Assembly (NCBI GenBank): GCA_018969225.1
Contig: JAGWYS010000005.1
Span: 1 to 39,946 of the forward strand
Source of the DNA: Gemmatimonadota bacterium
Lineage (GTDB): Bacteria; Gemmatimonadota; Gemmatimonadetes; Gemmatimonadales; Gemmatimonadaceae
Direction of reading: 5' to 3'
DNA length: 39,946 nucleotides
A program made the translations under genes and the position numbers. The notes under the pieces are model-generated. The model did no database searches and was not told the DNA's origin. It saw only the letters and a program-made list of their open reading frames with translations. Positions 2,035-35,383 of the stretch are shown here, piece after piece (the stretch's first letter is position 1; every line of letters begins with the position of its first letter).

Positions 2035-2402
2035 GCGCCCGCGAGTGGACACACGCCGAGGTGCGCTACCGGATGCCCCGCTACGGCGATGCGCTCCGGC
2101 TGGTACAGCGCGCCGCCACCCTGCCGCGTGGTACCGATCTGGCAACGCAGGTCGAGGGGTTGCCGTTCTTCGCCGACCTCATCCGGGCGTGCTGGTGTGT
2201 GGAGCCTGCACCCCCCGGATCTGACCAGATGCCGGACTGTACCGATTGGCTGGCGGATCAGGGGTGGAGTCTCCTCGACATCCTGACCACCGGGACGACC
2301 TGTCTGACCGAGGTGCAGCGCCGCCTGTTCACGGTGACGGACGGGGCGGTGAAGCACCGGGATTTTACGCCGACCCCGGCAACGCCCTCGACAACCTCCT
2401 GA
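2031..2402 (+). CDS. Tail assembly chaperone, short form (gpG-like)
   Basis: This 123-residue protein lies where siphophages carry the lambda G gene: after the tail tube and before the tape measure. Such chaperones bind the tape measure and recruit tube subunits. The start ATG overlaps the previous stop. The frame carries the genome's dispersed 16-bp motif at 2211-2226, read as PPGSD. The last eleven codons after GAT TTT encode a Thr/Pro-rich tail, while the -1 frame stays open to 2596, which suggests two products. The assignment is positional and the protein itself has no diagnostic motif. Confidence 0.6.
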   Translation: MSAREWTHAEVRYRMPRYGDALRLVQRAATLPRGTDLATQVEGLPFFADLIRACWCVEPAPPGSDQMPDCTDWLADQGWSLLDILTTGTTCLTEVQRRLFTVTDGAVKHRDFTPTPATPSTTS

Positions 2403-2596
2403 CCGGGGCAGGACTGGAGTACATGGGCCACCCTGACGCCGCGTATGACCTCGCCCCGGACGCGCAAGCGCGGCTGCTCGGGTGGCTGCTCGCCCGCACC
2501 TCCGGCCGGTCAGATCCGAGGGGCAAGGGCGGGACGGGCCAGAAGGTGCTGGACGGTGAGGATTTATTCAACCCTGCGACCTGGGCGCGGCGCTGA
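2031..2596 (+). CDS. Tail assembly chaperone, -1 frameshift product (gpGT-like)
   Basis: After codon 112 (TTT at 2364-2366), slipping back one base onto the overlapping TTT at 2363-2365 joins the short form to a 76-residue extension. The extension begins YADPGNALDNLL and ends DLFNPATWARR, giving about 188 residues. In the -1 frame the upstream sequence (from 2246) has no ribosome site, and the extension is protein-like (LAPDAQARLLGWLLART). This matches the G/GT arrangement conserved in siphophages. The slippery site is GATTTTA, a single-tRNA slip and not a canonical XXXYYYZ heptamer, so efficiency may be low. A separate gene started internally is the alternative. Confidence 0.55.
2211..2226 (-). 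repeat. Dispersed 16-bp motif, perfect copy
   Basis: In the tail chaperone gene, read as PPGSD between two likely helices. Confidence 0.9.
2361..2367 (+). other. Candidate -1 ribosomal slippage site GATTTTA
   Basis: Zero-frame codons are GAT TTT ACG. tRNA-Phe on TTT can re-pair with the overlapping TTT one base upstream, after which TAC is decoded in the -1 frame. The site lies at the only point where the two chaperone frames can join without losing the likely domain of either. Confidence 0.5.
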
Positions 2597-3048
2597 TGGC
2601 CGGGATCATCTTCCCGATCCGACTCCAGTCCATTGACGCGCTGATCGGGGTGGCGCACGGTCGCCCGCGCAGCCTGACCGCTGCCGAGACAGCCACGCTG
2701 CGGGACTACGTTGACCTCATCATCGAGGACATCCAAGATCGGTGGCCGGTGGATACCGGCACCTCCCGCGACGGGTGGCAGTATGAGCTGTACAACCACC
2801 CGCCGGGGATCGGGTTCGATCTGATCAATGAGGTTGAGTACAGCCCCTATGTCAGCGCCGCCGGGGATCGGGGTCAACCCGCCTATGAGATCCTGATCCC
2901 GTGGGCGGTTGGTCGCCATGCCCCCGCTATGCGTGCCGAACTGATCCGCCAGATCAATGCGGAAGAGCAGCGCCGCCGGGATCGGGAGGCCCGCGCCGTG
3001 CGCCTCCCCCCGCCGCCGGGTACACTAAGGCCGAGGGTGCGGCGATGA
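2596..3048 (+). CDS. HK97 gp10-like neck / tail completion protein
   Basis: This 150-residue protein contains the signature seen in gp10-like neck and tail-completion proteins. A VDTGTSRDGWQYE segment (about residues 52-64) is followed by NEVEYSPYVSAAGD, a variant of the strand-turn 'N...YA..vE.G' found in that family. The C-terminus is a basic helix and a Pro-rich tail. Its ATG overlaps the stop of the chaperone frameshift product (TGATG at 2594-2598). Finding it downstream of the tail chaperone is less usual than upstream, but such shuffles occur. The next gene appears distantly related. Confidence 0.55.
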   Translation: MAGIIFPIRLQSIDALIGVAHGRPRSLTAAETATLRDYVDLIIEDIQDRWPVDTGTSRDGWQYELYNHPPGIGFDLINEVEYSPYVSAAGDRGQPAYEILIPWAVGRHAPAMRAELIRQINAEEQRRRDREARAVRLPPPPGTLRPRVRR

Positions 3049-3539: not shown

Positions 3540-5393
3540 ATGCCCACCGGATCTGACGTCAGGGTCACCTTCACCGGGGACACCTCACAACTCACCGCCG
3601 CCAGCAAGCAGGCAAGCGCCGCCATCGCCTCGACCGGGGACGCCGCCGACAAGGCGCAGTCGAAGATGGACGCGCTGAACGAGGAAGCGTCCCGGGTCGG
3701 CGACGGGTTCGGCAAGGTGGGCGGGTCGGCATCAAAGGCGGCGGGCGCGGTGGGCATGCTCTCCCCCGCTGCCGGTGATGCTATCGGGAGCCTCGCCGAT
3801 CTGGCCGATGTCGGGGAGATGGCCGCCGAGGCCAGTGCTGCGCTCGGCGTCAGCGCGGCGGCGGTGACGGCAGCCCTCGGAGCGCTGGTGACGGCGGCTG
3901 CGCTGGTTGCCGCCGCGTATGCCGGGTGGAATGAGGAGGCCGCGACGGCCACCCGCCTCACGGAGCAACAGAACGCCCTCACCGCCGCGATGGCCCCGCT
4001 CTATGAGGACACCGAGGCCGCGATCCGGGCGGCGCGGGTCGAGCTCGGGCTGATGACCGAAGCACAGGCCGAGATGATTGATGCTGGACTGGCGGGGCTG
4101 GCGCAGTACCAGGAGGCGACCGAGGCCACCCGGAAGCGGCTGGCGGAACTCCGGGCGTCGCAGGCCAGCATGACCGGGCAGGTTCAGCAGTTCCTCGGGG
4201 ATGTCGGGGAAGCCCTGCCCCTCCAGGAGTACAACGTCCTCGCCCAGGTCATTGACGCCGCCACCACCTCATCCAGCGAGTTCGCCACAGAGGAGGGGCG
4301 ACTCCAAGAGGGGCTGTCCGGGGCCGCTGCCGAACTGAAGCGCAACCGAGAGGCGCACGCGGCGCTGACGGCGGCAAAGAGCAAGGGTAAGGCGGCAACA
4401 GATGGGATGACCGCCGCCGACGAGGCCGCTGAGGCTGCGGCGAAGGCGCGGGAGGCTGCCGAGCGGCGACTGGCGGAGTTCCTGGCCGAACGGGCGAAGG
4501 CTGAGAAGGACTACGCGGACGCGCTGGCATCGATCCGGGCGATGGAGTCGGAAGCCAACGCCGACCGGCTGACCGAGATCGAAGCCCTGACGGCGGCGCG
4601 GGATGAACAGATCGCGACGCTGAACCGCACCCTGACGGAACAACTGGCAGCGACCGAGGGCAACGCGATCCGGCAGGCGGAGATCGAGCAAGCCGGGGCC
4701 GATGCGCGCCTCGCCATCGAACAACGCTACCAGCGGGACAAGGGGGAGATCGTCGCGGAAAGCAACGCCCGGATCGCGGAGGAGAACGCCGCCGCACTGG
4801 CGGATCTGGAGGCACAGAACCGGGCCGCTGCTGAGGCGATCTATCAGGTGAGCGGCGACCTGTTCGGGTCGGTGTCCGATCTGGCGGGATCGCTGATGGA
4901 TGCGGGGCTGGCGAAGTCGAAAGAGGGGCTGCGCGCCCTGTTCGGCGTACAGCAGGCCGCCGCCGTCGCGCAGGCTGCGATCAACACCGCTCTCGCCGTC
5001 AGCAACGCCCTCGCCCTCCCCCTCCCCCCGCCGCTGCCGCAGATCGCCGCCGTCGCCGCAGGGATCGCCGGGGCCGCACAGGTCGCCGCCATCACCAGCA
5101 CCCCGCCCCCCTCTTTCCGGTCGGGCTACATGCCGGATCAGCAACTCGCCTATTTTGAACCGCAGTCCGAGATCGTCGCGCCCGCCTCGGCGGTGCAGGC
5201 GATGGGCGGGAAAGACGCGGCGCGGGAGGTGTTCGCGGGGATGAGCGGGGGCAGTGCGCCGACCGTGACCCGGTTCACGATGGGCCACCGGGAGTTCTCC
5301 GCGCTGGTACAGGGCAGCGCCACCCGGCCCGGTGCGCTGCGGGATCTGACTGTTCGCCCGTCCACGCGTTACGATCCCCACCATCGGAGGTAG
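3540..5393 (+). CDS. Tail tape measure protein
   Basis: This 617-residue protein is the longest Ala-rich helical protein of the tail module. A hydrophobic stretch near residues 98-125 (VSAAAVTAALGALVTAAALV) resembles the membrane-insertion segments of tape measures. Long coiled-coil runs follow (about residues 150-430, many EAA/KAREAAER repeats), then a second hydrophobic block (AAIAGAAQ-type sequence near 490-530). At the usual ~0.15 nm per residue it predicts a tail near 90 nm. It follows the chaperone genes, as in lambda-like phages. Its N-terminus (PTGSDV) contains a short version of the dispersed DNA motif at 3547-3557. Confidence 0.88.
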   Translation: MPTGSDVRVTFTGDTSQLTAASKQASAAIASTGDAADKAQSKMDALNEEASRVGDGFGKVGGSASKAAGAVGMLSPAAGDAIGSLADLADVGEMAAEASAALGVSAAAVTAALGALVTAAALVAAAYAGWNEEAATATRLTEQQNALTAAMAPLYEDTEAAIRAARVELGLMTEAQAEMIDAGLAGLAQYQEATEATRKRLAELRASQASMTGQVQQFLGDVGEALPLQEYNVLAQVIDAATTSSSEFATEEGRLQEGLSGAAAELKRNREAHAALTAAKSKGKAATDGMTAADEAAEAAAKAREAAERRLAEFLAERAKAEKDYADALASIRAMESEANADRLTEIEALTAARDEQIATLNRTLTEQLAATEGNAIRQAEIEQAGADARLAIEQRYQRDKGEIVAESNARIAEENAAALADLEAQNRAAAEAIYQVSGDLFGSVSDLAGSLMDAGLAKSKEGLRALFGVQQAAAVAQAAINTALAVSNALALPLPPPLPQIAAVAAGIAGAAQVAAITSTPPPSFRSGYMPDQQLAYFEPQSEIVAPASAVQAMGGKDAAREVFAGMSGGSAPTVTRFTMGHREFSALVQGSATRPGALRDLTVRPSTRYDPHHRR

Positions 5394-5396
5394 CCC

Positions 5397-8300
5397 ATGC
5401 CCGAAGTCGTCCCCACCCATGCGCTGCGCGGGCTGCTCCTTCATGATGCCCGGTTCTGCGAAGCCAACCGGATCAGCGCGACCTCGCAGGCTGATCCATT
5501 CTACGGCACCCCTGCCCCGCAGGCTGCCGAACTGGCGCGGCTGGAGGCATGGTCGGGCGCGACCGACGCCGCCGGGGGCAGCGCGGGGAGCGGGTACAGT
5601 GAGGTATGGGTGGAAGCGTCGCGAGCAGGGACGGCGCAGCCCGGACAGGGGGCGGGTCAGATCCGATGGTCGCCGGGTGATCCTGCCGCCTCCTCTCAGC
5701 GCGGGTGGATGCCGCCGAGGGTGGCGCAGGACTTCCAGTGGCTGCGGTTTGAGTCGGCCACCCTCACCTATCACCAGCCGCACGCGCTGAGCCTGTCGGA
5801 CGGGTCGCTGTTAGTTGCGTACGTCCGAGAGGTGAGCGGCGCGACAACGACGATCCGGTGTATCCGGGCCGCGCCCGAGTCCACCCCCGGCTCCGAGGTC
5901 GAGATCGCGGCAGATACCTACCTGGAGTATTCCAGCACATTCGACATGGGGCCGCAGTTGGTGGAACTGCCGGACGGGCGGGTGCTGTGCTTCTACCTGT
6001 CCCGCCGGAACTCTATGCTCCGGATGAACGTGGCGATGACCTCTGACCTCGGCACCACATGGACACGGGTGGTCTATGAGGCGGGCGGGATCGCCCTCGC
6101 CGTTGCCGGGTGCGCGGGGCTGCGGGTGGTGTACCACGGGGGTTACCTCACCTGCCTGATCCAGATGGCGGCGAACCAGTGCTACCACTACGTCAGCGCC
6201 GACATGGGCGCGTCATGGTCGCTGATCGCGGGCGACGACCCGGTGAACATGACGGGCGCGTCCCTGCTCTCCCTCCCCGGCGGGGGCTGCGCGGTGATCT
6301 ACGCGCACACCGGCAACACCCACCTGCACTACACGGTGAAGCCGAGTGCGTACAGCGGATTCGACACCGATGGCGCGGTTGTAGTGAACGCGAGTTCTGC
6401 ACAGAATATCGCGGTTGACCTCGATAACAACCGGGCGTACATCGCCGCCTGCATCGATCAGGACGGGTCTATCGTCTGTGCCTACCGCGTGTCGGGCGCG
6501 GCGCCGGGTTGCCGGATGCGGCTGATCCGGTTCCTCCCGACGATCAGCGATTCGGTCACCAGCGGGTTCAGCACTGATCTCCTCTGGACGGACACGGAGA
6601 GCGCGGGCGGCACCTATGACGCCGAGCCGCTGACCTGGAGCGACGATGCCGAACGCATGATCGCCGTCACCCTCGCGCCGCACACCGGGGGGCTGCGGCT
6701 GATCAGCGGGTTCGAGGGGAGCGCCGGGGTCAAAACCGGCAGCCTCGGGATGGTGACGCTCGGGGGCTGGTCTACGGCGTTCGCCTCCCCGGCTACATTC
6801 GGCATGTACAACGACGCGACCCAGTACGGGATCGCGTACGTCCCGTTTATCCTCGCCTCCTCCGTTGCAGGGTGGACGCGGACGGGCGCGTCCGTCTCGA
6901 CCCTGACCTCCTCGGGGATGCAACAGTCGTTCGCGGGCGCAGCGACGGACTACTACAGCGTGACGGGTGGGGCGTCGGGCTACCTGTGGGCGTTGTTCAC
7001 CCACATCCACACCAGCGGCGGGGCGCTCACCGCTGACGACTCGTTCGTGGAGGCGCTGTGTACGGACGGTGCGACCAAAGAGCATTACATAAAGATCAGA
7101 TTCACTGACACCTCCGCCCGGTGCATGGACATGAACAACGCGGGCGCGACGCTCGGAACCAACCTCACCGGCCTCACGGCGGGCGCTCAGTACCAGTGGC
7201 AGATCCACATGAACCTCGACAAGGTTCGCGTCTGGTACAAGCTCCGCACCGCGACCGAGTGGATACTGTGGCAGGAGGTCACGCCGACCTCGGCGACCGT
7301 CGCAGCGGCAGCGGTGTTCCGGTTCGGGACGAACTCGACCAACTCATGTAACGCAACCTGGGCATTCGTCGGGGTGTCGCACTACAACGACCCGACCGCC
7401 ATCGCGCACAGCGTCATTGCCGATGAGTACCTGACCGGGCGCCCCCTCGGGACTCAACCGGTGTACGTCGCAGCGGGCGCGTCGGTGCGGGCGACCCGTG
7501 CGCCGGTCATGGGCGGCGACCTTTGGCAGATCGCCCTGCGCCACGGGTACGGGGCCGATGCCCTCGACCCGGTGATCTCCCCGTCCCCCCGCCGCCCGTG
7601 GCGCAGCACCGCGACGACGGAGCAGAGCATCGTATGGGATCTCGGCGTCACCTCCTCCCTGCTCTCCCCGGCCGTCGGCCTGCACCTCTCCCGCCCGCTC
7701 GCCCGGACGGTGTACCTGGAGGGCAGCGCCGACAACATCACCTATACCACCCTGATCACCCTGGACTGTGCAGGGGCGATGTCCGGGCTGACCTTCTCCC
7801 GGACGGGCGACATACTGACCCGCAACGGCGGCACCACCGGGGCGGATTGGGTGGGGACGGATGAGTTGGTCGGGGGTTACGCGCTCATGTCCAGCGGCGG
7901 CACCGACTACATCCGGGAGATCCTGGGCAACGCGGAGGGCGTGTGGGCGACGCCTGCGAAGAAGATGAAGATCCGGATCGCAGACTCCGGCACCGCGCCC
8001 GCATCGGGGACGCTGGCGATCCTGCGCCCTGCTGTGACCGGGATCGCGTGGGCGGCGACCACCGAGTATCGGTACTGGCGCCTCCGGGTGGCGGCGCAGA
8101 CGATGGACGCGGGCAGCCCCGGCTACCTGTCCATCGGCGCGGCGGTGATCGGGCCGCTGCTGGCGTTCGGGCGGCAGTACAGCCGGGGGCGCACACTGGC
8201 GACCCAGCACGCGCAAGAGATCACCACCCTCCCATCCGGCCATCGGTCAGTGCGGACGCTGGCCCCGCCCCGGCGGGCGGTTGAGTTCGCGTGGGCGGAG

Positions 8301-8630
8301 GGGGTAGACACGACGCAGGCACAGGCCGACATCAGCGCGAGCGGCGCGCCGGACTGGATCGCTGGGGCGGCCTCGGCGGAACCGCTGGCGACCCGGAACG
8401 CTGGCGACGTGATCGAGGGTATGGCGCGGAGGCAAGGTGGGGCCGCGCTGCCGGTGGTGTACCTCCCGGATCTGACCTTCCTCGACGCCGGTACCACGGT
8501 CGGGCGGCGGGATCAGCAGGTGTATGGGCGCATCGTCACCAACACATTCTCCCGCGTCGCGGCGCTCGGCGCGGAGTCGCGGGATGAGGTGCAGACGGTA
8601 GGGACGGTTCGGATAGAAGAGGAGGTCTAA
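5397..8630 (+). CDS. Large tail tip / fibre protein with Asp-box (BNR) repeats
   Basis: This 1077-residue protein lies immediately after the tape measure. Its residues about 130-330 look like a sialidase-type beta-propeller: repeated 'LSDGSLLVAYV' and 'LPDGRVLCFYL' blades and two Asp-box motifs, SDLGTTW (about 216) and SADMGASW (about 267). A middle region around 500-660 (lectin-like jelly-roll composition) and a C-terminal region with strands follow. It probably forms part of the tail tip or side fibres and may bind or cleave host glycans. Catalytic arginines of true sialidases cannot be assigned by eye, so activity is unproven. Confidence 0.65.
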   Translation: MPEVVPTHALRGLLLHDARFCEANRISATSQADPFYGTPAPQAAELARLEAWSGATDAAGGSAGSGYSEVWVEASRAGTAQPGQGAGQIRWSPGDPAASSQRGWMPPRVAQDFQWLRFESATLTYHQPHALSLSDGSLLVAYVREVSGATTTIRCIRAAPESTPGSEVEIAADTYLEYSSTFDMGPQLVELPDGRVLCFYLSRRNSMLRMNVAMTSDLGTTWTRVVYEAGGIALAVAGCAGLRVVYHGGYLTCLIQMAANQCYHYVSADMGASWSLIAGDDPVNMTGASLLSLPGGGCAVIYAHTGNTHLHYTVKPSAYSGFDTDGAVVVNASSAQNIAVDLDNNRAYIAACIDQDGSIVCAYRVSGAAPGCRMRLIRFLPTISDSVTSGFSTDLLWTDTESAGGTYDAEPLTWSDDAERMIAVTLAPHTGGLRLISGFEGSAGVKTGSLGMVTLGGWSTAFASPATFGMYNDATQYGIAYVPFILASSVAGWTRTGASVSTLTSSGMQQSFAGAATDYYSVTGGASGYLWALFTHIHTSGGALTADDSFVEALCTDGATKEHYIKIRFTDTSARCMDMNNAGATLGTNLTGLTAGAQYQWQIHMNLDKVRVWYKLRTATEWILWQEVTPTSATVAAAAVFRFGTNSTNSCNATWAFVGVSHYNDPTAIAHSVIADEYLTGRPLGTQPVYVAAGASVRATRAPVMGGDLWQIALRHGYGADALDPVISPSPRRPWRSTATTEQSIVWDLGVTSSLLSPAVGLHLSRPLARTVYLEGSADNITYTTLITLDCAGAMSGLTFSRTGDILTRNGGTTGADWVGTDELVGGYALMSSGGTDYIREILGNAEGVWATPAKKMKIRIADSGTAPASGTLAILRPAVTGIAWAATTEYRYWRLRVAAQTMDAGSPGYLSIGAAVIGPLLAFGRQYSRGRTLATQHAQEITTLPSGHRSVRTLAPPRRAVEFAWAEGVDTTQAQADISASGAPDWIAGAASAEPLATRNAGDVIEGMARRQGGAALPVVYLPDLTFLDAGTTVGRRDQQVYGRIVTNTFSRVAALGAESRDEVQTVGTVRIEEEV

Positions 8631-8664: not shown

Positions 8665-8679
8665 GGTCAGATCCGGGGG
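8665..8679 (+). repeat. Dispersed 16-bp motif, near-perfect copy (intergenic)
   Basis: Fifteen bases of the consensus in the 76-base gap between the Asp-box tail gene and the hub-like gene, where no reading frame constrains it. Confidence 0.85.
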
Positions 8680-8706
8680 AGGGTGCTACGATGGCCATGA
8701 GGAGGA

Positions 8707-10332
8707 GTGGTGCCATACCCCGATGATATGACCCTCGCCGCCGGTCGTCAGCGCACGGTACTGCGGCTGGTCTGTGACGGGGTGGCGCGGAACTACAGCG
8801 ACACTGCGCTGAGCATCGCCAACGCCGCAGGGCTGCCGGTGGACGTATCTCCGGGACTGGCTGAGCCGGACATGGTGGACGCCCTCGGTCAGCCGAATAC
8901 CTCCCTCGCCGTCGAGCTCCTCGCGCCCGCCGACCATGCCGCCATCATCGGCGGGCTGTTCGGGGCATGGGCGGAGGTGTCGCAGATCCTGGAGGGGCAG
9001 GACTGGAGCCTGCGCCGGGTGGTGGTGCGGGGCTACGCCGACGCGCCGATCTACGGGGAGGAGGGTGAGCCGATCCGGTTCGGGCTGGCCTCCGCCCCCT
9101 GGGAGGATCGGGGGCTGATCCCGCTGCCCTCATGGAGTGTCGGCCCGGAGACATGGCCTCGCGCCGGATCTACCCTCGGGCTGCCGGAGGATCGGGCAGG
9201 GCCGCTGTACCCGGTCGTCCTCGGCGACCCCGGCGCCGACGCCGACGCGACGACTGAGGCGGACTGGTACCCGATCCCGGCGCTGATTGTGGAGATCGAT
9301 ACCGCCCTTGACCCGGCTGACAACTCCGCGAACGCCTGCATCCTCCTCCTCGGCGCGGGGCGGTTGGCATGTGTGGGGGGCAACGTCGAGCTGTTCAATG
9401 AGACGACCGGCGCGACCGTCACACTCAGCCCCTTCGCCACCCGCGATGCCATGAACCAGATCGTCACCTGCCTGGAGGTCGCGGTCGGGGATATGCCGGT
9501 CACCAACGGCGACGCGCTCTATTGGCGGCCCGAGGCGGGCGGGAAGGCGGGCATCCCCGGCACCGGCACAGCGGGCGGGGCGATCCGGTGGCTGGCGGGG
9601 TTCTGCTCTGCCGAGGTGGATCAGGAGTCGGTCGCGGCGGCGTCGCCCTTCCTCGACCGGTGGCGGGTGGCGGCGGTCATCAGCGCGGAAGAGCCGGTCA
9701 GCCCGTGGGGGTGGATCGAGGATCACCTGTTGTCAGTGCTGCCAGTGATCGCGGTGGACGGGCCGGGGGGCGTGACGTTGGCGCCGCTGCCGGTCATGCC
9801 CGCCGACGCCGACGGGGCGCGGGTGATCGATGTCGAGGCGGTCGGTGGGGCGCGCTCCGGGCCGGTCGAGGTGTCGTCATGGCGCGACCTGTCCACCGCC
9901 CTCTCCCTGTCCTACGGATCTGACCCCCGGACGGATCAATACCGGCGACGGATCGATCTCGACCCGACCCTGACCACCACCATCGGAAGCCGCCAGCCCA
10001 CCCCCTACGGTGCGGCGGCGTCGGTGCGGTACGGTGGGCTGAGGCTGGAAGAGATCAGCCTTGACGCGGTGTGCGATCACCTGACCGCCTCCGCGCTGGC
10101 GGAGTACCACATGCGGCGCGTGTCGCAGATGGTGGCGGAGGTCGAGGTGGTGCTGCCGCAGTCGTTCCAGTTCCTCCAGTCCGGCGATCTGGTCAGGCTG
10201 ACCCTGCCGCGCATGTACCTCCCGACCGGCGCAGCGTGGACAGAGGTATTGTGCATCGCCCTCTCCGTCCCCCGGATCAGCGGGGCCGGGGTATACCGGT
10301 TCCGCACTGTGCCTGATTGGAGCCGCGCATGA
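8707..10332 (+). CDS. Tail tip / baseplate hub-like protein
   Basis: This 541-residue acidic, beta-rich protein sits between the large tail-tip gene and the fibre gene, the position of hub or tip-attachment proteins in siphophages. The start is uncertain. GTG 8707 or GTG 8710 follow a GGAGGA at 8701-8706 with almost no spacing, while ATG 8728 (MTLAAGRQRT) is in frame but far from a ribosome site. The last residues end KVRFRTVPDWSRA-like and overlap the next ATG. No named family is recognised. A degenerate dispersed motif lies at 9915-9925. Confidence 0.5.
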   Translation: MVPYPDDMTLAAGRQRTVLRLVCDGVARNYSDTALSIANAAGLPVDVSPGLAEPDMVDALGQPNTSLAVELLAPADHAAIIGGLFGAWAEVSQILEGQDWSLRRVVVRGYADAPIYGEEGEPIRFGLASAPWEDRGLIPLPSWSVGPETWPRAGSTLGLPEDRAGPLYPVVLGDPGADADATTEADWYPIPALIVEIDTALDPADNSANACILLLGAGRLACVGGNVELFNETTGATVTLSPFATRDAMNQIVTCLEVAVGDMPVTNGDALYWRPEAGGKAGIPGTGTAGGAIRWLAGFCSAEVDQESVAAASPFLDRWRVAAVISAEEPVSPWGWIEDHLLSVLPVIAVDGPGGVTLAPLPVMPADADGARVIDVEAVGGARSGPVEVSSWRDLSTALSLSYGSDPRTDQYRRRIDLDPTLTTTIGSRQPTPYGAAASVRYGGLRLEEISLDAVCDHLTASALAEYHMRRVSQMVAEVEVVLPQSFQFLQSGDLVRLTLPRMYLPTGAAWTEVLCIALSVPRISGAGVYRFRTVPDWSRA

Positions 10333-13614: not shown

Positions 13615-13630
13615 GCTCACCTCCACAGCC

Positions 13631-13667
13631 ATACTATACGACGGGCTACCCGCTGTCAACAGGTAGC
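13631..13667 (-). promoter_or_regulatory. - strand promoter with -35-centred dyad GCTACC/GGTAGC
   Basis: On the - strand, -35 TTGACA (13654-13659), a 17-bp spacer and -10 TAGTAT (13631-13636). The perfect inverted repeat GCTACC (13645-13650) and GGTAGC (13662-13667) brackets the -35 box, as an operator would. The promoter at 18.53 kb has the same -10 region TATACGACGG and the same distance to its start codon. Confidence 0.75.
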
Positions 13668-13692: not shown

Positions 13693-13698
13693 TTGTGC

Positions 13699-25894: not shown

Positions 25895-27294
25895 GCGACG
25901 ATCTCGACTTCACCGAGGACGTGGACAGCGCCCCCGCTGGCGCGCCCACACTGACCGACAAGGGCAACGCGGAGGTGTTCGCCGCGCAGAACGCGGGCGC
26001 GGCCTGCTGGTGCGCCTCGATGCCGGGTGACGGGTGGATGACCTGGGATGCGTACCGGTGGCGGCCTGACATGAACCGCCGCACGGTGCAGGCGGCGATG
26101 CAGATCGGGGAGTGGTGGCGCAAGCAGGCACCGCCCGCCGTACCGGATGGGAGCAGCGATCCCCGCGACGAAGAACAGGCGGCGCGGCGCAAGGCGATCC
26201 TCAGCCACGCAATGCGCTCGGAGTCGGCGCGGGCCGTGCGCGGGATGCTCGATCTGGCGCAGCCCCTGATGGCTGTTGAGGCGGGGCGGTTCGACGCGGG
26301 CGACATGCTGCTCTGCACCCCGGCGCGGACGTATGACCTCGCCACCTGGAAGCACCGCGCCCCCGCGCCCGGTGACTATGTGACGCGGGCGACCTCGGTC
26401 AACGTCGGGGGGGACTGCCCCACCTGGATCGCATTCCTGGATCGGATCATGGGCGGGGACGCTGAGATGGTCGCGTACCTTCAGCGGGTGGTCGGCTACT
26501 GCCTGACCGGCTCGACGGCGGAACAGTGCATCTTCATCGCGCACGGGTCGGGGGCGAATGGGAAAAGCACCTTCATGGAGGCCATCGCCTACGTCATGGG
26601 GGACTACGCGACGACGACGAGCGTTGACACGTTCACGGCGCGGCGGCAGGGGGCGATCCCGAACGACCTCGCAGCCCTCGCCGGGGCGCGGCTGGTGTCG
26701 TGTTCGGAGACGGCGGAGGGGGGCGGGCTGGATGAGGGGCTGGTGAAGCAGATCAGCGGCGGGGAGCAGGTCAGCGCCCGGTTCCTGCAACGCGAGTTCT
26801 TCACATTCACCCCCAAGTTCAAGCTCTGGATGCTCACCAACCACAAGCCGATCATCAAAGGGACGGATAACGGAATCTGGCGGCGCATCCGGCTCATCCC
26901 GTTCGATGTCACGATCCCGCCCGAGGAGCGGGACAAGGATCTCCCCGCGAAGCTGCGCGCCGAGGCGGGCGGGATCTTGAAGTGGGCGCTGACCGGCCTG
27001 CGCCAGTGGCGGGAGGGGGGGCTGAAAGACCCGGAGAAGGTCAAGGCGGCGACGGACAGCTACCGGGGGGAGATGGACATCCTCGGCGACTTCCTCAACG
27101 AGATGTGCTTGGTCGGGGCGGGACACAAGATCACCAACGGCCTGCTGTACTCGACGTACAGCCAGTGGGCGAAGGACAACGGGCTTCAGCCGAAGTCACA
27201 CAAGTGGCTGACCCGCGCCCTGCTCGACAAGGGGATTCAGCAGTCGTCGTGCCGGTCGGATGGCCGGATGTGGATCGGGGTCACGCTGCGCTGA
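25891..27294 (+). CDS. SF3 (D5/P4-type) replicative helicase
   Basis: This 467-residue protein is the helicase part of phage/plasmid P4-family primases. It has a D5_N-like domain (about 90-205), Walker A HGSGANGKSTF (about 218-228), a Walker B/B' region ending LVSCSET (about 270-276), and motif C FKLWMLTNHKPIIKGTDNGI (Asn about 317). A winged-helix-like end follows (SHKWLTRALLDKGIQQSSCR). It lacks the N-terminal primase, which is supplied by the prim-pol at 18.9-19.8 kb. It should unwind the candidate origin that begins 60 bases downstream. Confidence 0.88.
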   Translation: MSDDLDFTEDVDSAPAGAPTLTDKGNAEVFAAQNAGAACWCASMPGDGWMTWDAYRWRPDMNRRTVQAAMQIGEWWRKQAPPAVPDGSSDPRDEEQAARRKAILSHAMRSESARAVRGMLDLAQPLMAVEAGRFDAGDMLLCTPARTYDLATWKHRAPAPGDYVTRATSVNVGGDCPTWIAFLDRIMGGDAEMVAYLQRVVGYCLTGSTAEQCIFIAHGSGANGKSTFMEAIAYVMGDYATTTSVDTFTARRQGAIPNDLAALAGARLVSCSETAEGGGLDEGLVKQISGGEQVSARFLQREFFTFTPKFKLWMLTNHKPIIKGTDNGIWRRIRLIPFDVTIPPEERDKDLPAKLRAEAGGILKWALTGLRQWREGGLKDPEKVKAATDSYRGEMDILGDFLNEMCLVGAGHKITNGLLYSTYSQWAKDNGLQPKSHKWLTRALLDKGIQQSSCRSDGRMWIGVTLR

Positions 27295-27356: not shown

Positions 27357-27644
27357 AGGACACATCCGGCCCGGATAGGACACATTAGGACAGATCGAAA
27401 AACGGATGTGTCCTGATATTTTGAAGGTTAGATGTGCATTGTTTCGATGGTAGGACACATAGGACACGTTTTTGATGGGTGTCGTTCCTATATAGAGATG
27501 ATTCAGAAAGTGCTGTGCGTAACCCCTTCAGAATGTGTCCTATGTGTCCTTGATTGCAGAATGGTAGATAGACACTCATCTATTCCGGGACACTTCCGTT
27601 TTTGAAGTGTCCTACAAGTGTCCTCTTTTGCCCGGATGTGTCCT
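27357..27644. other. Candidate replication origin with AGGACACAT iterons
   Basis: Eight exact or one-mismatch copies of AGGACACAT, and three looser ones, occur in 288 non-coding bases. Direct: 27357, 27377, 27387 (AGGACAGAT), 27452, 27461 (AGGACACGT) and 27587 (GGGACACTT). Inverted (ATGTGTCCT or AAGTGTCCT): 27406, 27533, 27542, 27605, 27616 and 27636. Tandem pairs at 27452-27469 and 27533-27550 face each other across an AT-rich core. Segments 27421-27480 and 27541-27600 are about 42-43% G+C against about 68% elsewhere. The array begins just after the SF3 helicase gene. Iterons plus an AT-rich zone beside a replicative helicase is the standard form of a phage or plasmid origin. Confidence 0.75.
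27489..27494 (+). promoter_or_regulatory. Isolated TATATA box inside the origin
   Basis: CCTATATAGAGATG resembles the -10 and start region of the regulon promoters, but no -35 lies 17 bases upstream. It could be a degenerate promoter, an origin-firing transcript or simply part of the AT-rich unwinding zone. Confidence 0.3.
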
Positions 27645-27649: not shown

Positions 27650-27665
27650 CCCCCCGGATCTGACC
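27650..27665 (-). repeat. Dispersed 16-bp motif, perfect copy (intergenic)
   Basis: Six bases after the last iteron. It forms an inverted pair with the copy at 27704, one of the few places where the motif is outside genes. Confidence 0.9.
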
Positions 27666-27703
27666 CTCCCTCCCCTCCCGACGCGCTCATCCTGTCCGCA
27701 CCT

Positions 27704-27718
27704 GTCAGATCCGGGGGG
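27704..27718 (+). repeat. Dispersed 16-bp motif, near-perfect copy (intergenic)
   Basis: Fifteen matching bases (first G replaced by T), two bases upstream of the -35 box at 27721. It faces the copy at 27650 across 38 bases. Confidence 0.85.
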
Positions 27719-27765: not shown

Positions 27766-28239
27766 ATGGATGAACTGCTCCCCTGCCCGTTCTGTGGAGG
27801 CGATGCCGTCGAGCGCCCATTCTTCAGAGGGATGTCGATCATCCGGTGTCGCAAGTGCAGGGCTGATGGGAAGGCGGGCAACACGCTCGATGAAGCGGTC
27901 GCCGCGTGGAACCGGCGCACCTCTCCTCCCTGCCCCCCGGATCTGACCACCCAAGCCGACGCCGAGATCGCCATCCTCCGCAGCGACCTGCGCGCCGCCC
28001 GTGCCGAGCGTGACGCGCTCCGCGATGAGGTCGCCGCCCTGCGCGCTGCACAGGCAGCCACGGTGGTACAGATCCCCGACCCGTGCCGCCCGGTGCTGAC
28101 GATGACCCCCGCGCCGAGGTGGGTACAGGGTGGCGGGCGGGTGCCTGCCCTCGTCATCGGGGCCGGGGCCGGGTATGTCCTCGTCGTCACCGATGGCGAT
28201 CCCACCGTCAAGGCCGTCCCCGCCTCGGAGGTCAAGTGA
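27766..28239 (+). CDS. Lar-like restriction-alleviation protein with coiled coil
   Basis: Residues about 1-51 match the Lar family: LLPCPFCGGDAV (Cys 7 and 10), IIRCRKCRADGK (Cys 28 and 31) and LDEAVAAWNRR. Lar proteins relieve type I restriction, apparently by affecting the host enzyme. After a perfect dispersed motif (27933-27948, read PPDLT) comes a coiled coil (AILRSDLRAARAERDALRDE) and a small beta domain (about 105-157), making this longer than Lar alone. ATG 27766 follows GAGAGGTGA. The motif lies exactly at the domain boundary. Confidence 0.7.
   Translation: MDELLPCPFCGGDAVERPFFRGMSIIRCRKCRADGKAGNTLDEAVAAWNRRTSPPCPPDLTTQADAEIAILRSDLRAARAERDALRDEVAALRAAQAATVVQIPDPCRPVLTMTPAPRWVQGGGRVPALVIGAGAGYVLVVTDGDPTVKAVPASEVK
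27933..27948 (-). repeat. Dispersed 16-bp motif, perfect copy
   Basis: Sits at the junction between the Lar-like zinc domain and the coiled coil, read as PPDLT. Confidence 0.9.
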
Positions 28240-28786: not shown

Positions 28787-29661
28787 CCCCTACCCTGGGC
28801 GGCGCGGGCTTCGTGCGCCTCCTCGATCACATGGGCAGCGACGCCGGGATCTGCGATGTGGCGCGGGTCAGCTTCCGCTCCGGTCATGCCTCCGGATCTG
28901 ACCTCCCCCGATCCCCCGCCCGCGACCGTGACCTGATCCGCTACCTGATGCGCCACCGGCACAGCGGCCCCTTTGAGTTCGCCACCGTCCACATCCATGT
29001 CCGGCTCCCGATCTACGTCGCCCGCCAGTGGATGCGGCACCGCACCATGACGTTCAACGAGATCAGCGGGCGCTACCGGGAGTTGGGCGATGATGTCTAC
29101 CTGCCCGACACCCTCCACACCGCGCCTCCCGACGCGAAGCAGGGCCGGGGTGGGGAACATCCCCTCTCCCGCCGCCTCCTTGCCCCCCTGCGCGGCGCGG
29201 TCTCCGCCGCCGTCCGGGTGTACCGCGAGACCGTCGCGGCGGGTGTGGCGAAGGAACAGGCCCGCGCCGTCCTCCCCCTCGGCACGATGACCGAGTTCGT
29301 CATGCGCGCCGACCTCCACAACCTGCTCCACTTCCTGTCCCTGCGCCTCGACCCGCACGCACAGGCAGAGATGCGCGAGTACGCCGCCGCCGTCCTCGCC
29401 CTGATCGAGCCGCTATACCCGTTCACCGTCGAGGCGTGGCGGGACTACCGGCAGGGCGCGCCCGCCCTCTCCCGCGCACAGTGGGCCGCGATCCGCGCCG
29501 CCCTCCCCGCCGCGCCCCCGGTGCCAGGGCAGAGCGCGGGCGAGGATCGGGAGTGGGCCGCCCTCTGGGTTGCCGCCCCGGCTACACCGGTATACAATCC
29601 TGATGCGGGTGCCGCCCCTTCCTCCGGCGGCGCCCTGCCTCCCCCCTCGGAGCGCCGATGA
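28783..29661 (+). CDS. thyX: Flavin-dependent thymidylate synthase ThyX
   Basis: ThyX makes dTMP from dUMP using FAD, NADPH and methylene-THF. The family signature RHRxxSxNExSxR is present as RHRTMTFNEISGRY (about 85-98), with Thr in place of the first Ser. RHRHSGPFEFATV (about 57-69) and the C-terminal region ending VEAWRDY are also typical. ATG 28783 overlaps the upstream stop. The protein is 292 residues, longer than most. Residues about 33-48 (RSGHASGSDLPRSPA) replace a short variable loop and contain a short dispersed motif (28892-28903). The last 70 residues are a Pro/Ala-rich tail. Confidence 0.92.
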   Translation: MTPTLGGAGFVRLLDHMGSDAGICDVARVSFRSGHASGSDLPRSPARDRDLIRYLMRHRHSGPFEFATVHIHVRLPIYVARQWMRHRTMTFNEISGRYRELGDDVYLPDTLHTAPPDAKQGRGGEHPLSRRLLAPLRGAVSAAVRVYRETVAAGVAKEQARAVLPLGTMTEFVMRADLHNLLHFLSLRLDPHAQAEMREYAAAVLALIEPLYPFTVEAWRDYRQGAPALSRAQWAAIRAALPAAPPVPGQSAGEDREWAALWVAAPATPVYNPDAGAAPSSGGALPPPSERR

Positions 29662-29894
29662 ACCCCGACCGCGCACAGATCGCCGCCCTCGGCGCTGACC
29701 CCCCGCCCCGCGACCGAATCCCGGTGCAGATCCCATGCCAGTTCATCCGGGCCATGCTCGGGGCGACGGAGGGGCAGGAGCGGGAGGTGCTGAACGCGAG
29801 GCTCGATCAGATCCGGCGGGCGCAGGGGTTCCGCACCAACGCCGAGGCGCTGGTGTGGGCGCTGAAGGAGGCATACGATGTCCCCCGCTACTGA
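29658..29894 (+). CDS. Small helical protein (78 residues)
   Basis: ATG 29658 overlaps the thyX stop (ATGA). The product has a short strand (DRIPVQIPCQFIRAML) and helices ending AEALVWALKEAYDVPRY, compatible with an RHH-type or accessory DNA-binding protein. It overlaps the ParB-domain gene by 17 bases. TCAGATCCGG at 29807-29816 is a short fragment of the dispersed motif. Confidence 0.45.
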   Translation: MNPDRAQIAALGADPPPRDRIPVQIPCQFIRAMLGATEGQEREVLNARLDQIRRAQGFRTNAEALVWALKEAYDVPRY

Positions 29895-31716: not shown

Positions 31717-32266
31717 GCCCACCCCCGCCCCGGCCCCCGACGCCGAGGTGCTGATCTCGATGCTGCGGGCGTACCAAGTCCCGATCTACATGGTCGTCAC
31801 CGTCGAGCAGATGGAGGCGATCTGCAAGGAGATCGGCAGCGGCCTGCTCACCGCGTCGGGCGCGATCAAGCGGCACCTCGGCGTCACCCGCAAGACGATG
31901 CACCGCGCCATCCGGGCCGGGGAAGCAGCGGCGGACAAGGCGGCACGGGGGGAGCGTCTGGACAAGCGGGAGGAGCGGGCGCTGTGGTTCGTGTCCTGCC
32001 TCACCCGCGCCGGGGCGCAGCGGGAGATGTCGCTGACCTCCCGCGCCCTCGGCATCGGGCCGAAGGGCGGGGACAAGCGCGAGTCCAACGGGGCGCTACA
32101 GATCCTCCGGCTGACCTGCGATGCCTACCGTCCTGACCCCCCGGATCTGACTGATCCCGAGGACGCGCCCCCCACCGACCCCACCCCCGCGCAGGCTGAG
32201 GCATGGATACGCCGTGAGGCTGACCGGCTCGGGTTCACGCTGACGCCGAAGCCCGCCGAGGAGTAG
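31709..32266 (+). CDS. Terminase small subunit (TerS)
   Basis: This 185-residue protein precedes the large terminase. ATG 31709 overlaps the previous stop. An N-terminal HTH (SGLLTASGAIKRHLGVTRKT then MHRAIRAGEAAADKAAR, about 42-80) and a long charged helix are typical of small terminases that recognise packaging sites. A C-terminal low-complexity tail holds a near-perfect dispersed motif (32137-32152, PPDLT). The assignment is from position plus HTH. Confidence 0.65.
   Translation: MPKPTPAPAPDAEVLISMLRAYQVPIYMVVTVEQMEAICKEIGSGLLTASGAIKRHLGVTRKTMHRAIRAGEAAADKAARGERLDKREERALWFVSCLTRAGAQREMSLTSRALGIGPKGGDKRESNGALQILRLTCDAYRPDPPDLTDPEDAPPTDPTPAQAEAWIRREADRLGFTLTPKPAEE
32137..32152 (-). repeat. 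Dispersed 16-bp motif, near-perfect copy
   Basis: Fifteen of 16 bases (last C replaced by T), in the C-terminal tail of the small terminase, read as PPDLT. Confidence 0.85.
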
Positions 32267-32302: not shown

Positions 32303-33673
32303 ATGTCGCCGCTCGACATCTACGAGTGGTGCAGCCCGCGTACAGGGGGGATGACGCCGGGACAGCGCCGCTTCCATGCTGACCCCGCCCGCTACCGGCG
32401 GCTACAGGCGGGGAATCAGGTTGGCAAGTCCTACGCGGGCGCGGCGGAGGCGTGGTGGTGGATGCTCGGTCGCCACCCCCACCGCATCACCCCCTCTGCC
32501 CCGACCGAGGGGTGGATTGTCCTGCCCGATCTCCAGGGGGACTGGCCGAAGATCAGCGCAAAGCTGCGCGCCCTCCAGCCGCCGGACATCCTCGCGGACG
32601 GATGCCGCTATGACCGGATGCGCGGCTACATCGCCAGTGGGGCGCGGGGGATCGCGCTGCGCAACGGAAGCACCGTCACCCCGAAGTCCGGCACCCAAGA
32701 CCCCCTCGCCGTCGAGGGCGGCACGATTGACTGGATCTGGGTGGATGAGCCGCCGAAGGTCACCCACTGGCAGAGCCTCCCGCAGCGCGTGGCCGTCCGG
32801 GGCGGATCGATCTGGCTGACGTTCACGCCCGTTGGCCGCCCCCTCGGGTGGTTGAGGGAGTATTTCGAGGGCAACCCGGAGTCCAACCCGCCGACCCCGC
32901 CCGCGCCGGGATGGAGTGAGATCCGCGTCCGGCTCACCCCCGAGAACTGCCCGCACCGGTCGGCGGAGTCCATCGCCGATCAGGTCGCGGCGATGTCACC
33001 CTGGCAGGTGCGGCAGCGGCGGGACGGGGACTGGGAGGGGCTGACCGAGGCGCGGCGGTTCGTCGCGTTCGGCGAGGGCAGCATCGCCCCCGACGCGCTG
33101 ATCGAGTCCATGACCGCCTCCCATGTCCGGCTGTCCTGGGATCACGGCGAGGGGACGAACAATCAGGTGTGCTATCTGATCCTCGGCGACGGGCGGCGCT
33201 GGATCGTCGCTGACGAGACAGTCAGTGAGAAGGGAAGCACCCCGGCGATGGACGCCCGCCGCGCCCTCGACATGCTGACCCGGTGGGGGCTGACGGTGGA
33301 TCATGTCACCGCCGCGTTCGGGGACGTGAACAGCGCGGGCAAAGCGGGGGCGGGTGCCAGCGTGAACGCCCTCCTTGAAGCCGCGTTCGCTGACCTCACC
33401 CGCCGGAGCGCGCCGCCCTTTGAGATCCGCCGACCAAACAAGCGCGGCGGGTCGGTCGAGGCCGGGGAGAAGGCGATGAACAGCCTCATCCGGGAGGGGC
33501 GGTTGTTCACGACGGCCCGCACCGCCAGTCTCAACACCTCGCTCCAACACTACACCGGCAGCGAGAAAGACCTGAAACACCCCATTGACGCGGTGCGCTA
33601 CGGACTGTCCGATGTGCTGCTCACACCCCCCGGATCTGACCCTCGGGGCGCGTCGCGCCTGATCGTGGTATAG
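32303..33673 (+). CDS. Terminase large subunit (TerL)
   Basis: This 456-residue packaging motor has Walker A AGNQVGKSYAG (about 36-46), Walker B IDWIWVDEPP (Asp about 148, Glu about 149) and a coupling motif WLTFTPVGR. The RNase H-like nuclease half includes LSWDHGEGTNN (metal Asp), FGDVNSAG and a late acidic patch. It cuts and translocates DNA at the portal. ATG 32303 has no clear ribosome site. The C-terminal 15 residues contain a perfect dispersed motif (33626-33641, read PPGSD), beyond the conserved domain. Confidence 0.9.
   Translation: MSPLDIYEWCSPRTGGMTPGQRRFHADPARYRRLQAGNQVGKSYAGAAEAWWWMLGRHPHRITPSAPTEGWIVLPDLQGDWPKISAKLRALQPPDILADGCRYDRMRGYIASGARGIALRNGSTVTPKSGTQDPLAVEGGTIDWIWVDEPPKVTHWQSLPQRVAVRGGSIWLTFTPVGRPLGWLREYFEGNPESNPPTPPAPGWSEIRVRLTPENCPHRSAESIADQVAAMSPWQVRQRRDGDWEGLTEARRFVAFGEGSIAPDALIESMTASHVRLSWDHGEGTNNQVCYLILGDGRRWIVADETVSEKGSTPAMDARRALDMLTRWGLTVDHVTAAFGDVNSAGKAGAGASVNALLEAAFADLTRRSAPPFEIRRPNKRGGSVEAGEKAMNSLIREGRLFTTARTASLNTSLQHYTGSEKDLKHPIDAVRYGLSDVLLTPPGSDPRGASRLIVV
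33626..33641 (-). repeat. Dispersed 16-bp motif, perfect copy
   Basis: Ten codons before the large terminase stop, read as PPGSD. Confidence 0.9.
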
Positions 33674-33682
33674 GAGAACCGC

Positions 33683-35383
33683 ATGACCCCCTACGCCCCC
33701 ACCATGCCGCACCACACCGACGCTGACCGCGCCATCCGTGAGGCCGCCGCCCTGCGCCGGAGGTTGGTGGAGGGCGCGTGGCGGGATGATGCTGCGCGGC
33801 GACAGGCGGATTTCTTCGCCGAGGAAGTGCGCGAGATGTTGCCCGCCCCGGTGCTGAGCCGGAACGCGGCGCTTCAGGTGTGGGGGCAGATCGCGACCCT
33901 GTACGACGACACGCCCACTGTCGAGATCGCCGGGATGGACGCGACCCCGCTCACACCCGCCGACCTGTGGCCGATGCGGCAACAGTCGCACCTCCTCCAA
34001 GTGGCCGCCAACGAATGCCTGATGCGGGTGGACTACGACGGAACCGACCTGTCGTATCGGGTGGTGCCAGTGGATACGGTCGTGATGCGCGCCGTCACCC
34101 GCGCCCCGGAAGGTGCCGCCCCCTTCAACCCGATCCGGGGTCAGCCCGTCCGGGTCGAGGAGTGCCGCACCCGCCTGCACCCTGCCGGGGATGGCGAAGT
34201 CTGGACATGGGAGGTTTGGGATGTGTCAGATCCGGCGGCACCGCTGTTTCAGATCTGGGTTCAGGGCAAGGGCACGGACGGGAAGGACGCATGGATGGAC
34301 TACACCGCCCACTATGCCGGGGCGGAGGGGTGGCCGGAGCAGTACCGGGATGCGGCGGGGCGGGCTGTGCTGCCCTACACCCTGCATCACCGCCGCGTCG
34401 GCGATCACCTCCGCGAGCCGCTGGCGGGTCAGGAGGTCGTGTCCGGCACCCTCGACGCCTCGGCGCTCTGGACGATGTGGCTCAGCGCCGTCCGCGATGG
34501 GGCGCACCCGCAGCGGTACCTGATCGATGGGCAGGTGCCGACCGGAGTCACCAACGGCGCCGGGACGCGGGGGGTGATGGAGGCGCAGGTGGTGAGGATG
34601 AACCCGCAGACGGTCATCCAGATCCACGGCATCCGGCGCGGGGAGGAGTACACCAACCCCTCCGCCGGACAGTGGCAGCCCGCCGCCGACCCCGCCTCCC
34701 TCGGGACGGCGATCGAGTCGTATGAGGCGGGGCTGGCGGTGTCCGCGGGCCTCTCCCCCGCCGACGTCAGCCGGGGGAGCAACGGCATGTCCGGCTACAG
34801 CATCGTCGTCAGCCGGAAGGGTCAGCGGGACGCACAGAAGAAGTTGATCCCGCCCTCGCGAATGGGCGATCAGATCATGCTGGCGAAAGCTGCCGCCCTG
34901 CTCGGGTGGGCCGAACCGTTGACCCGCCCCGGCGCGATCAACATCACCTATGCGACGATGGGTGTCAGCCCGGAAGAGGCGAAGGCAGAGCAGGAGGTGA
35001 TCAAGGGCGATCTTGACCTCGGGCTGACCTCCCGCCGCGCCGCCATGCGCCGCCGCAACCCCGGCCTGACCAATGCGCAGATTGACGCGCTGATCGCGGA
35101 GATCGAGGCGGAGAAGGAAGGGCCGGAGGCAGAGGTGCCGGAGGAGATGGACACCGAGGAGGCCACTGATGAGGATGCCGTCCTGCGCGACACGCTGACC
35201 GAGGCTGACGACGCGTTGAACAGCGGGGACTTCCGTACCGCCGCCCGCGCCATCTCCCGCGCTATCGGGATGCTGGAGGCCGACACCGCCGAGGACGCAG
35301 CAGAGGAGATGGACGCAGAGGACATGGACGCAGAGGACATGCCCCCCGGATCTGACCAGACTGAGGCGGGCGATGCCAGTTGA
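33683..35383 (+). CDS. Portal protein
   Basis: This 566-residue protein follows the large terminase, as portals do. Its central region (YNAVRD-type helices; SGYSIVVSRKGQRDAQKKLI, about 370-390) and the acidic, helical C-terminus (many EEMD/AED repeats, about 480-566) resemble SPP1/P22-sized portals. Twelve copies would form the DNA channel. The acidic end contains a perfect dispersed motif (35342-35357, PPGSD). ATG 33683 follows AGGAGAACC. The stop overlaps the next gene by 11 bases. Confidence 0.85.
   Translation: MTPYAPTMPHHTDADRAIREAAALRRRLVEGAWRDDAARRQADFFAEEVREMLPAPVLSRNAALQVWGQIATLYDDTPTVEIAGMDATPLTPADLWPMRQQSHLLQVAANECLMRVDYDGTDLSYRVVPVDTVVMRAVTRAPEGAAPFNPIRGQPVRVEECRTRLHPAGDGEVWTWEVWDVSDPAAPLFQIWVQGKGTDGKDAWMDYTAHYAGAEGWPEQYRDAAGRAVLPYTLHHRRVGDHLREPLAGQEVVSGTLDASALWTMWLSAVRDGAHPQRYLIDGQVPTGVTNGAGTRGVMEAQVVRMNPQTVIQIHGIRRGEEYTNPSAGQWQPAADPASLGTAIESYEAGLAVSAGLSPADVSRGSNGMSGYSIVVSRKGQRDAQKKLIPPSRMGDQIMLAKAAALLGWAEPLTRPGAINITYATMGVSPEEAKAEQEVIKGDLDLGLTSRRAAMRRRNPGLTNAQIDALIAEIEAEKEGPEAEVPEEMDTEEATDEDAVLRDTLTEADDALNSGDFRTAARAISRAIGMLEADTAEDAAEEMDAEDMDAEDMPPGSDQTEAGDAS
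35342..35357 (-). repeat. Dispersed 16-bp motif, perfect copy
   Basis: In the final 15 codons of the portal gene, read as PPGSD. Confidence 0.9.

Follow-up and report, generated by a model that had tools for sequence, protein, structure and literature searches.

Evenly spaced, strand-specific copies of a dispersed motif in a phage genome from a Gemmatimonadota bin: a candidate signal for the initiation of DNA synthesis

A stretch of 39,946 nt from a Gemmatimonadota bin (contig JAGWYS010000005.1; hereafter the window, to which all coordinates refer) was analysed as the genome of a phage, W, together with related loci that carry G and L numbers. The ends of the window overlap by 69 bp, leaving about 39.9 kb after closing, so that the genome is probably complete and circularly closing. 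The main finding is that a 16-bp motif, GGTCAGATCCGGGGGG, dispersed throughout W, is evenly spaced along each strand taken separately and forms an inverted pair directly beside an iteron block, a pattern for which a role in the initiation of DNA synthesis is tentatively proposed. The even per-strand spacing, the alternation of strands and the inverted pair were not part of a preliminary description of the motif, which proposed no role in replication either.

The 16-mer was found in ten exact copies, all at the positions given in the preliminary description, and in 12, 5 and 5 further copies with one, two and three mismatches, respectively, while 100 dinucleotide shuffles yielded 2.05 copies on average, and never more than 5, at 0-3 mismatches together; the enrichment observed earlier is therefore real. 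Six copies with one change had been located correctly to within 1 bp. Among the versions previously taken to be only 10-14 bases long, those at 2508, 8462, 13184, 14430, 23426 and 36094 are in fact 16-mers with one change, and the site at 29805-29820 and two bare cores (5342 and 15218) were absent from that list. The invariant core is TCAGATCC(G), present in 34 copies as the 8-mer (15 on the plus and 19 on the minus strand) and in 32 copies as the 9-mer TCAGATCCG, for which 0.23 copies are expected from base composition. GG precedes the core and a G-rich tail follows it, other positions being unremarkable. The sites are listed below with the source of each assignment in brackets.

395 to 410, plus strand: motif site, core TCAGATCCG (motif scan)
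2211 to 2226, minus strand: motif site, exact 16-mer (motif scan)
2508 to 2523, plus strand: motif site, 1 mismatch, intergenic (motif scan)
3543 to 3558, minus strand: motif site, 2 mismatches (motif scan)
5336 to 5351, minus strand: bare core TCAGATCC; site at the equal position in G001, G002 and L140 (motif scan, alignment)
5655 to 5670, plus strand: motif site, 3 mismatches; common to G001 (motif scan, alignment)
8462 to 8477, minus strand: motif site, 1 mismatch (motif scan)
8665 to 8680, plus strand: motif site, 1 mismatch, intergenic (motif scan)
9910 to 9925, minus strand: motif site, 3 mismatches (motif scan)
12566 to 12581, plus strand: motif site, 1 mismatch (motif scan)
12934 to 12949, minus strand: motif site, exact, intergenic (motif scan)
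13184 to 13199, minus strand: motif site, 1 mismatch (motif scan)
14430 to 14445, plus strand: motif site, 1 mismatch (motif scan)
15212 to 15227, minus strand: bare core TCAGATCC (motif scan)
17617 to 17632, minus strand: motif site, exact (motif scan)
17828 to 17843, plus strand: motif site, exact (motif scan)
19313 to 19328, plus strand: motif site, exact, within the Prim-Pol gene; common to G001 (motif scan, alignment)
19664 to 19679, minus strand: motif site, 1 mismatch, within the Prim-Pol gene; common to G001 (motif scan, alignment)
20473 to 20488, plus strand: motif site, 1 mismatch (motif scan)
20664 to 20679, minus strand: motif site, core TCAGATCCG (motif scan)
22218 to 22233, plus strand: motif site, exact, just ahead of the ATG at 22235 taken as a gene start; common to G001
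22937 to 22952, minus strand: motif site, 2 mismatches; common to G001 (motif scan, alignment)
23426 to 23441, plus strand: motif site, 1 mismatch (motif scan)
27650 to 27665, minus strand: left site of the iteron-side inverted pair, exact (motif scan)
27703 to 27718, plus strand: right site of the inverted pair, 1 mismatch, 49 bp between cores (motif scan)
27933 to 27948, minus strand: motif site, exact (motif scan)
28888 to 28903, minus strand: motif site, 2 mismatches, in ThyX (motif scan, Pfam)
29805 to 29820, plus strand: motif site, 2 mismatches, intergenic (motif scan)
32137 to 32152, minus strand: motif site, 1 mismatch (motif scan)
33626 to 33641, minus strand: motif site, exact, in the last TerL codons; present in 9 of 10 relatives aligned there, not in G011
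34224 to 34239, plus strand: motif site, 3 mismatches; common to G002, G003 and G004 (codon alignment)
35342 to 35357, minus strand: motif site, exact, at the end of the portal gene; common to G001, G002 and L140 (alignment)
36094 to 36109, plus strand: motif site, 1 mismatch; common to G001 and its close kin and to L140 (alignment)
39544 to 39559, minus strand: motif site, 2 mismatches (motif scan)

Spacing was assessed in W and in two relatives, G001 (41 kb with a 127-bp end overlap; TerL 72% identical to that of W) and G002 (an incomplete 33-kb fragment; TerL 75% identical). The coefficient of variation (CV) of same-strand gaps between copies of TCAGATCC was 0.42/0.55 on the two strands of W, 0.60/0.42 in G001 and 0.41/0.27 in G002, compared with 0.87-0.93 for random placement, and the mean same-strand interval was 1.9-2.9 kb. 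Over the three genomes the joint mean gap CV of 0.45 (random, 0.92) was lower than in all 20,000 random placements, the lowest of which reached 0.64, and lower than in all 20,000 strand shuffles. When other 8-mers of comparable abundance were tested (42, 27 and 30), none had CVs as low as the motif and the words overlapping it, and the even spacing persisted after removal of the gaps with both ends common between genomes. Neighbouring sites alternated in strand at 27 of 31 steps in W (9-mer) and at 29 of 37 in G001 and 21 of 28 in G002 (8-mer), an alternation that was spotted post hoc in W and then tested in G001 and G002. For the most part it arises because spacing is even within each strand; when one strand set was rotated, the p values for alternation of the 8-mer were 0.37 (G002), 0.20 (G001) and 0.09 (W). 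The same procedure gave p = 0.006 for the W 9-mer, so that some direct coupling between the strand sets is possible.

Two sets of dispersed phage sites served as controls. The stoperators of D29, taken with at most one mismatch, comprise five in the left arm on one strand, 19 in the right arm on the other and one at position 190; 24 of the 25 are fixed relative to transcription, and the CV on the main strand is 2.49. The nick sites of phage tf all lie on one strand (14/14), with a CV of 0.83. Even spacing per strand distinguishes the W motif from both.

The inverted pair lies next to the putative origin, the relevant features of which are the following.

25891 to 27294, plus strand: D5-type (SF3) helicase gene adjoining the putative origin (PF08706, PF03288)
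27357 to 27644, no strand: iteron cluster of ATGTGTCCT repeats, lowest-GC region and putative origin (cumulative GC-skew peak at 27571)

This intergenic iteron block coincides with the lowest-GC windows in W and G002, and in G001 with two of the six lowest, the remaining four being located within a gene at around 9.8 kb. In all three sequences cumulative GC skew reaches its maximum inside the block (27571 in W, 13758 in G001 and 2277 in G002), consistent with a replication origin at this place. Directly past the block stand two motif sites in inverted orientation, with core distances of 49 bp in W, 51 bp in G001, 50 bp in G002 and 51 bp in G003; they are the closest sites in each sequence, the next distances being 195, 152, 100 and 296 bp, respectively. 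The order of helicase-type gene, iteron or AT-rich block and inverted pair is the same in W, G001 and G002, with different spacers. The gene ahead of the block encodes a D5_N helicase in W and a DUF927 protein in G001, and in G002 its product resembles an ATPase and has no Pfam match; the iterons differ likewise (ATGTGTCCT in W, CTGCTACA-like in G001 and AGACCCCACC in G002), as if the origin module had been swapped while the flanking motif pair stayed. In G007 the pair has been widened to 157 bp by an internal tandem array. The putative origins, alike in position in the three related phages, lie at window positions 27357-27644, L111 2037-2480 and L108 about 13480-13780.

With respect to genes, 27 of the 34 cores are genic and 7 intergenic (coding fraction 0.90, by our own gene calls). 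Twelve genic cores are on the strand of their gene and 15 on the opposite strand, so that orientation is independent of the genes. The frame that would read TGA had been described as avoided; none of the 15 opposite-strand genic cores is in this frame, but an open gene alone requires as much. The claim that the constraint acts on DNA rather than protein held up: the residues SDP at 34226 are written with TCAGATCCG in W, G002, G003 and G004 and with other codons in G001, G005, G006, G007, G008, G011 and G012, and PPGSD at the end of TerL is absent in G011, so that a constraint on the protein was not borne out. W sites in aligned codons were kept at the same place in 9 of 22 cases in G001, 4 of 17 in G002, 4 of 10 in L140 and 0 of 7 in G011. 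An aligned motif-less relative is available for 20 sites, and 14 of these align without gaps to at least one such relative. Sites are thus gained and lost by substitution, with density roughly kept. The codon alignments, in which no clean insertion was seen, do not support the miniature mobile repeat suggested earlier.

The motif belongs to this phage group. The W contig holds 32 of the 34 copies of TCAGATCCG in the 3.8-Mb bin, two lying elsewhere, and GTCAGATCCGG occurs 25 times on the contig and not at all in the rest of the bin; across 395 genomes of the phylum the 11-mer never exceeded 12 copies except in the bin itself. The bin being only the presumed host, these counts speak against the proposed signal shared with the host, and the chromosomal enrichment expected of a host site of Chi type or of the type of FtsK-orienting polar sequences (KOPS) was not found. 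A TerL relative (E up to 1e-20) was present in one of 288 genomes of the order, namely the bin. Motif-bearing relatives in IMG/VR comprised G001, G002, G003, G004, the fragments G005-G008, G012, G013 and L140, and the more distant G307. G011 (L101), a near relative (capsid 84%, TerL 77% to W), has no GTCAGATCC in 12 kb and one bare TCAGATCC; the fragment carries no replication genes. The motif was also not found in the 4.6-kb fragment G014 (capsid 57%). G009 encodes a D5 helicase 56% identical to that of W, yet contains one GTCAGATCC in 43.8 kb, and G307 bears the motif as in W although it has structural genes in common with G009, besides a few lysis and tail genes in common with G001; the motif therefore tracks neither the structural genes nor the helicase. 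In its own right, G009 (L122-L124) has a different dispersed motif, GGCAGYGGC, at 37 places, with GCCGCTGCC present 26 times (1.6 expected) and without even spacing.

Searches for further members returned little else. In a scan of genome contigs, 72 stretches each contained a single exact copy, and these were taken as chance matches. The inverted pair, when searched for, was present in 12 stretches: three known members (G001, G002 and G003), the new motif-bearing fragment G307, whose pair lies away from any iterons seen, and eight others with 2-4 GTCAGATCC per whole record and no match to the phage proteins compared. L140 was the one clear member gained from two additional motif scans, which also turned up a small number of loci, L212 among them, with 3-4 cores.

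Two adjoining genes encode candidate readers of the motif.

18921 to 19823, minus strand: Prim-Pol (archaeo-eukaryotic primase, AEP) with AEP core and C-terminal four-helix bundle, candidate reader (PF09250, structure model)
19784 to 20005, minus strand: small possible ribbon-helix-helix (RHH) protein overlapping the start of the Prim-Pol gene, second candidate reader

PF09250 was identified in both W and G001. The model of the W protein (predicted local distance difference test score, pLDDT, 88.2; predicted template modelling score, pTM, 0.63) shows a linker joining the AEP core and the four-helix bundle, and its top solved matches were pRN1 3m1m (E 5.3e-5; template modelling score, TM, 0.41) and, more weakly, NrS-1; RepB' was not among the 50 best fold matches. 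The core and C-terminal bundle looked for in a candidate reader are thus both present, with a modest fold match (TM 0.41). In this family the site recognised by the primase is reportedly bound through the helix bundle (PMC8718748). When the PDB was searched with the Prim-Pol sequence, nothing but 29-residue matches to 'Cake' proteins came back, and these were regarded as chance. The small protein overlaps the Prim-Pol gene start in W and G001 and has relatives in G001 and G002; its assignment to the RHH fold comes from a weak Pfam match of the G002 relative, and the low-confidence W model (pLDDT 77, pTM 0.47) has two helices, with unclear pairing of the N-terminal strand. TerS is an unlikely reader, as G004 keeps the sites of W with a TerS only 39% identical. 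An open reading frame at 18614, considered as a possible immunity repressor gene, is helix-turn-helix-like by eye only, with no Pfam match and no relative in G001 or G002. Separately, proteins encoded on the minus strand at L108 11035-11736 and L112 8020-9192 (G001 and G002) contain three to four zinc-finger-like repeats by eye, without Pfam match, and a pattern search of W found no counterpart.

Even spacing on each strand separately argues for a process whose substrate is a single strand or whose movement is polar, and which requires a site every few kb on each strand, and the position of the inverted pair beside the iterons ties the motif to initiation. The motif is tentatively read as a strand-specific initiation signal, for priming or primosome loading, of the replisome of W itself, with the Prim-Pol as likeliest reader. 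Synthesis would start at the origin from the inverted pair, its sites 49-51 bp apart, and the approximately 30 further copies would allow restart or priming on whichever strand becomes single-stranded while some 40 kb are copied; the Prim-Pol might act with the small protein encoded just ahead of it. In its fullest form, which is possible though doubtful, this would be a double-stranded DNA phage that tiles both strands near-regularly, on average every 1.9-2.9 kb, with a 9-16-bp signal and so gives every exposed strand predetermined start points of its own, an 'Okazaki ruler' read by a Prim-Pol and anchored by the origin pair, in which selection acts on spacing and not on position. The places where DNA synthesis restarts on lagging or displaced strands are, as a rule, loosely set. 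If the sites are initiation points, selection fixes them at even per-strand intervals, inside genes such as those for terminase and portal as well, and the spacing that a replisome requires can be read from the sequence. Should the reader act in another way, even per-strand spacing is still a testable signature for sorting dispersed phage motifs.

Several observations weigh against an initiation signal. Bidirectional theta replication needs priming on one strand per arm, but sites of either orientation lie to each side of the putative origin, so that strand displacement, re-priming or recombination-driven forks have to be assumed. The sites known for Prim-Pol enzymes measure 3-8 nt (GTG, TTTGGTTA; PMC8718748), compared with 9-16 nt here. 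No Prim-Pol was found in the incomplete 33-kb fragment G002, where a sigma-like gene takes its place after the small RHH-like gene. For five words listed from each, no motif of like strength was found in G010, ctLpZ231, 16-3, vir555 or X2_25, which are Prim-Pol phages or parts of them, and seven of the eight loci retrieved with the Prim-Pol as query lacked a comparable motif, the eighth being G001. A conserved hairpin beside the sites, as expected of single-strand initiation (ssi) sites, was not found; folding of the complement strand fell short of the random expectation in W (z 3.6) and G002 (2.1), though not in G001 (-0.9). GC skew shifts only weakly at the sites (z about -2.9 in two of three window sizes). 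A stricter tailed pattern (22, 16 and 17 sites) gave no significant alternation in W, G001 and G002, and the fragments G307 and L140 individually showed no significant regularity. Regularity also depends on how the sites are defined: with TCAGATCCG alone it lost significance in G001 and G002, which is what one would predict if other bases at the ninth position are acceptable too.

Other roles are possible, including binding of a phage protein or recombination. A comparison with mycobacteriophage stoperators had been made in the preliminary description. On a reading of this kind, a repressor would bind the asymmetric motif and block transcription on both strands, the inverted pair being the operator of an early rightward promoter. 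Cluster A stoperators are likewise asymmetric 13-bp sites found genome-wide in up to about 30 copies (PMC6550527; asymmetry, PMC9283540), a description that the 34 cores of W match, and W, G001 and G002 have all retained the small possible RHH protein. The pair also lies upstream of the gene at 27766, with TTGACC-N17-TATACG past its right site by eye, although no sigma-70-like promoter at the pair passed a scan. Stoperators, however, are mostly in one orientation relative to transcription (PMC6550527), whereas the genic W cores are divided 12 to 15; D29 sites are clustered and sorted by arm (CV 2.49), whereas the W sites are evenly spaced; and no integrase was found among the 30 W proteins scanned with Pfam. 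The comparison fails on orientation and spacing, and a stoperator-like role is considered unlikely. The virion nickase sites of tf-like phages offer another parallel, in which localized single-strand breaks would be left in the virion DNA. The interruption motifs of tf and Rembedalsseter are also short, asymmetric, dispersed, mostly genic and conserved within their group (PMC3517423, PMC11780129). They are confined to one strand with fewer copies, and in tf are unevenly placed, whereas the 15 plus-strand and 19 minus-strand sites of W would have both strands cut, and this explanation is given very little weight.

Both orientations and even per-strand spacing are predicted by Chi-like polar sites that stop or redirect a phage helicase-nuclease on linear DNA, since circularly permuted ends would need a nearby, correctly oriented site everywhere. 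W encodes an AAA_24 ATPase, which we take to be Sak4-like, and a ResIII helicase, both with relatives in G001. The motif is not the Chi of the host if the bin is the host, being nearly absent from the bin and unenriched in the phylum; no RecBCD- or AddAB-like nuclease was recognised among the 30 proteins scanned, and the inverted pair at the iterons is left unexplained, so that this reading appears improbable. Sites for a nucleoid, partition or packaging protein, RHH-like or ParB-like for example, that organises the genome would agree with their genome-wide distribution and with the encoded possible RHH protein and ParB_N protein (a weak match, below cutoff). Such a role predicts no even spacing separately per strand, and the ParB-like gene, present in G003, kin of G002, was not found in the incomplete G002; it too seems a very remote prospect.

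The oriV of RSF1010 (IncQ) combines an iteron origin with ssi sites. Like the arrangement proposed for W, it has initiation sites on opposite strands (ssiA and ssiB), a separate helicase and an AEP-fold primase, RepB', which recognises one ssi site per strand (PMC4434180, PMC4234260). RSF1010 has one 40-nt ssi site with a hairpin on each strand, whereas W has 15-19 short sites per strand and no conserved hairpin; in both, an inverted pair stands at an iteron block, a putative origin in the case of W. In its manner of working, this would be the closest known system. In the pRN1 replicon, ORF904 is a Prim-Pol with helix bundle, as in W, and the best fold match, and the product of orf56 is an RHH/CopG protein. 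The orf56 gene is a transcriptional repressor gene in the Prim-Pol operon (PMC4234260), and the small gene of W overlaps the Prim-Pol start. The putative pRN1 origin is a large stem-loop, and the W pair could fold into a 15-bp stem; the available excerpt describes a single origin stem-loop and no dispersed sites, and GTG can be mutated there without loss. NrS-1 Prim-Pol resembles the proposed W enzyme in that a phage Prim-Pol starts synthesis from defined template sequences, but its sites are 3-8 nt long and the excerpt describes no even spacing across the genome (PMC8718748). A sampling of the literature found nothing like the motif of W among the papers listed, and the motif is best viewed as a variant of dispersed phage sites with a putative function in initiation.

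The Pfam content of W comprises, besides the terminase, D5 helicase, Prim-Pol, AAA_24 ATPase, ResIII helicase and ThyX, a DpdA-family protein, a C5 methylase and a Lar-like protein. The DpdA-family gene (16482-17210, minus strand; PF23859, E 6.6e-76) suggests 7-deazaguanine modification of the DNA. The first gene past the putative origin (27766-28239) matches the restriction alleviation protein Lar (PF14354). GATC occurs 472 times in the whole window, compared with about 115 expected from base composition alone.

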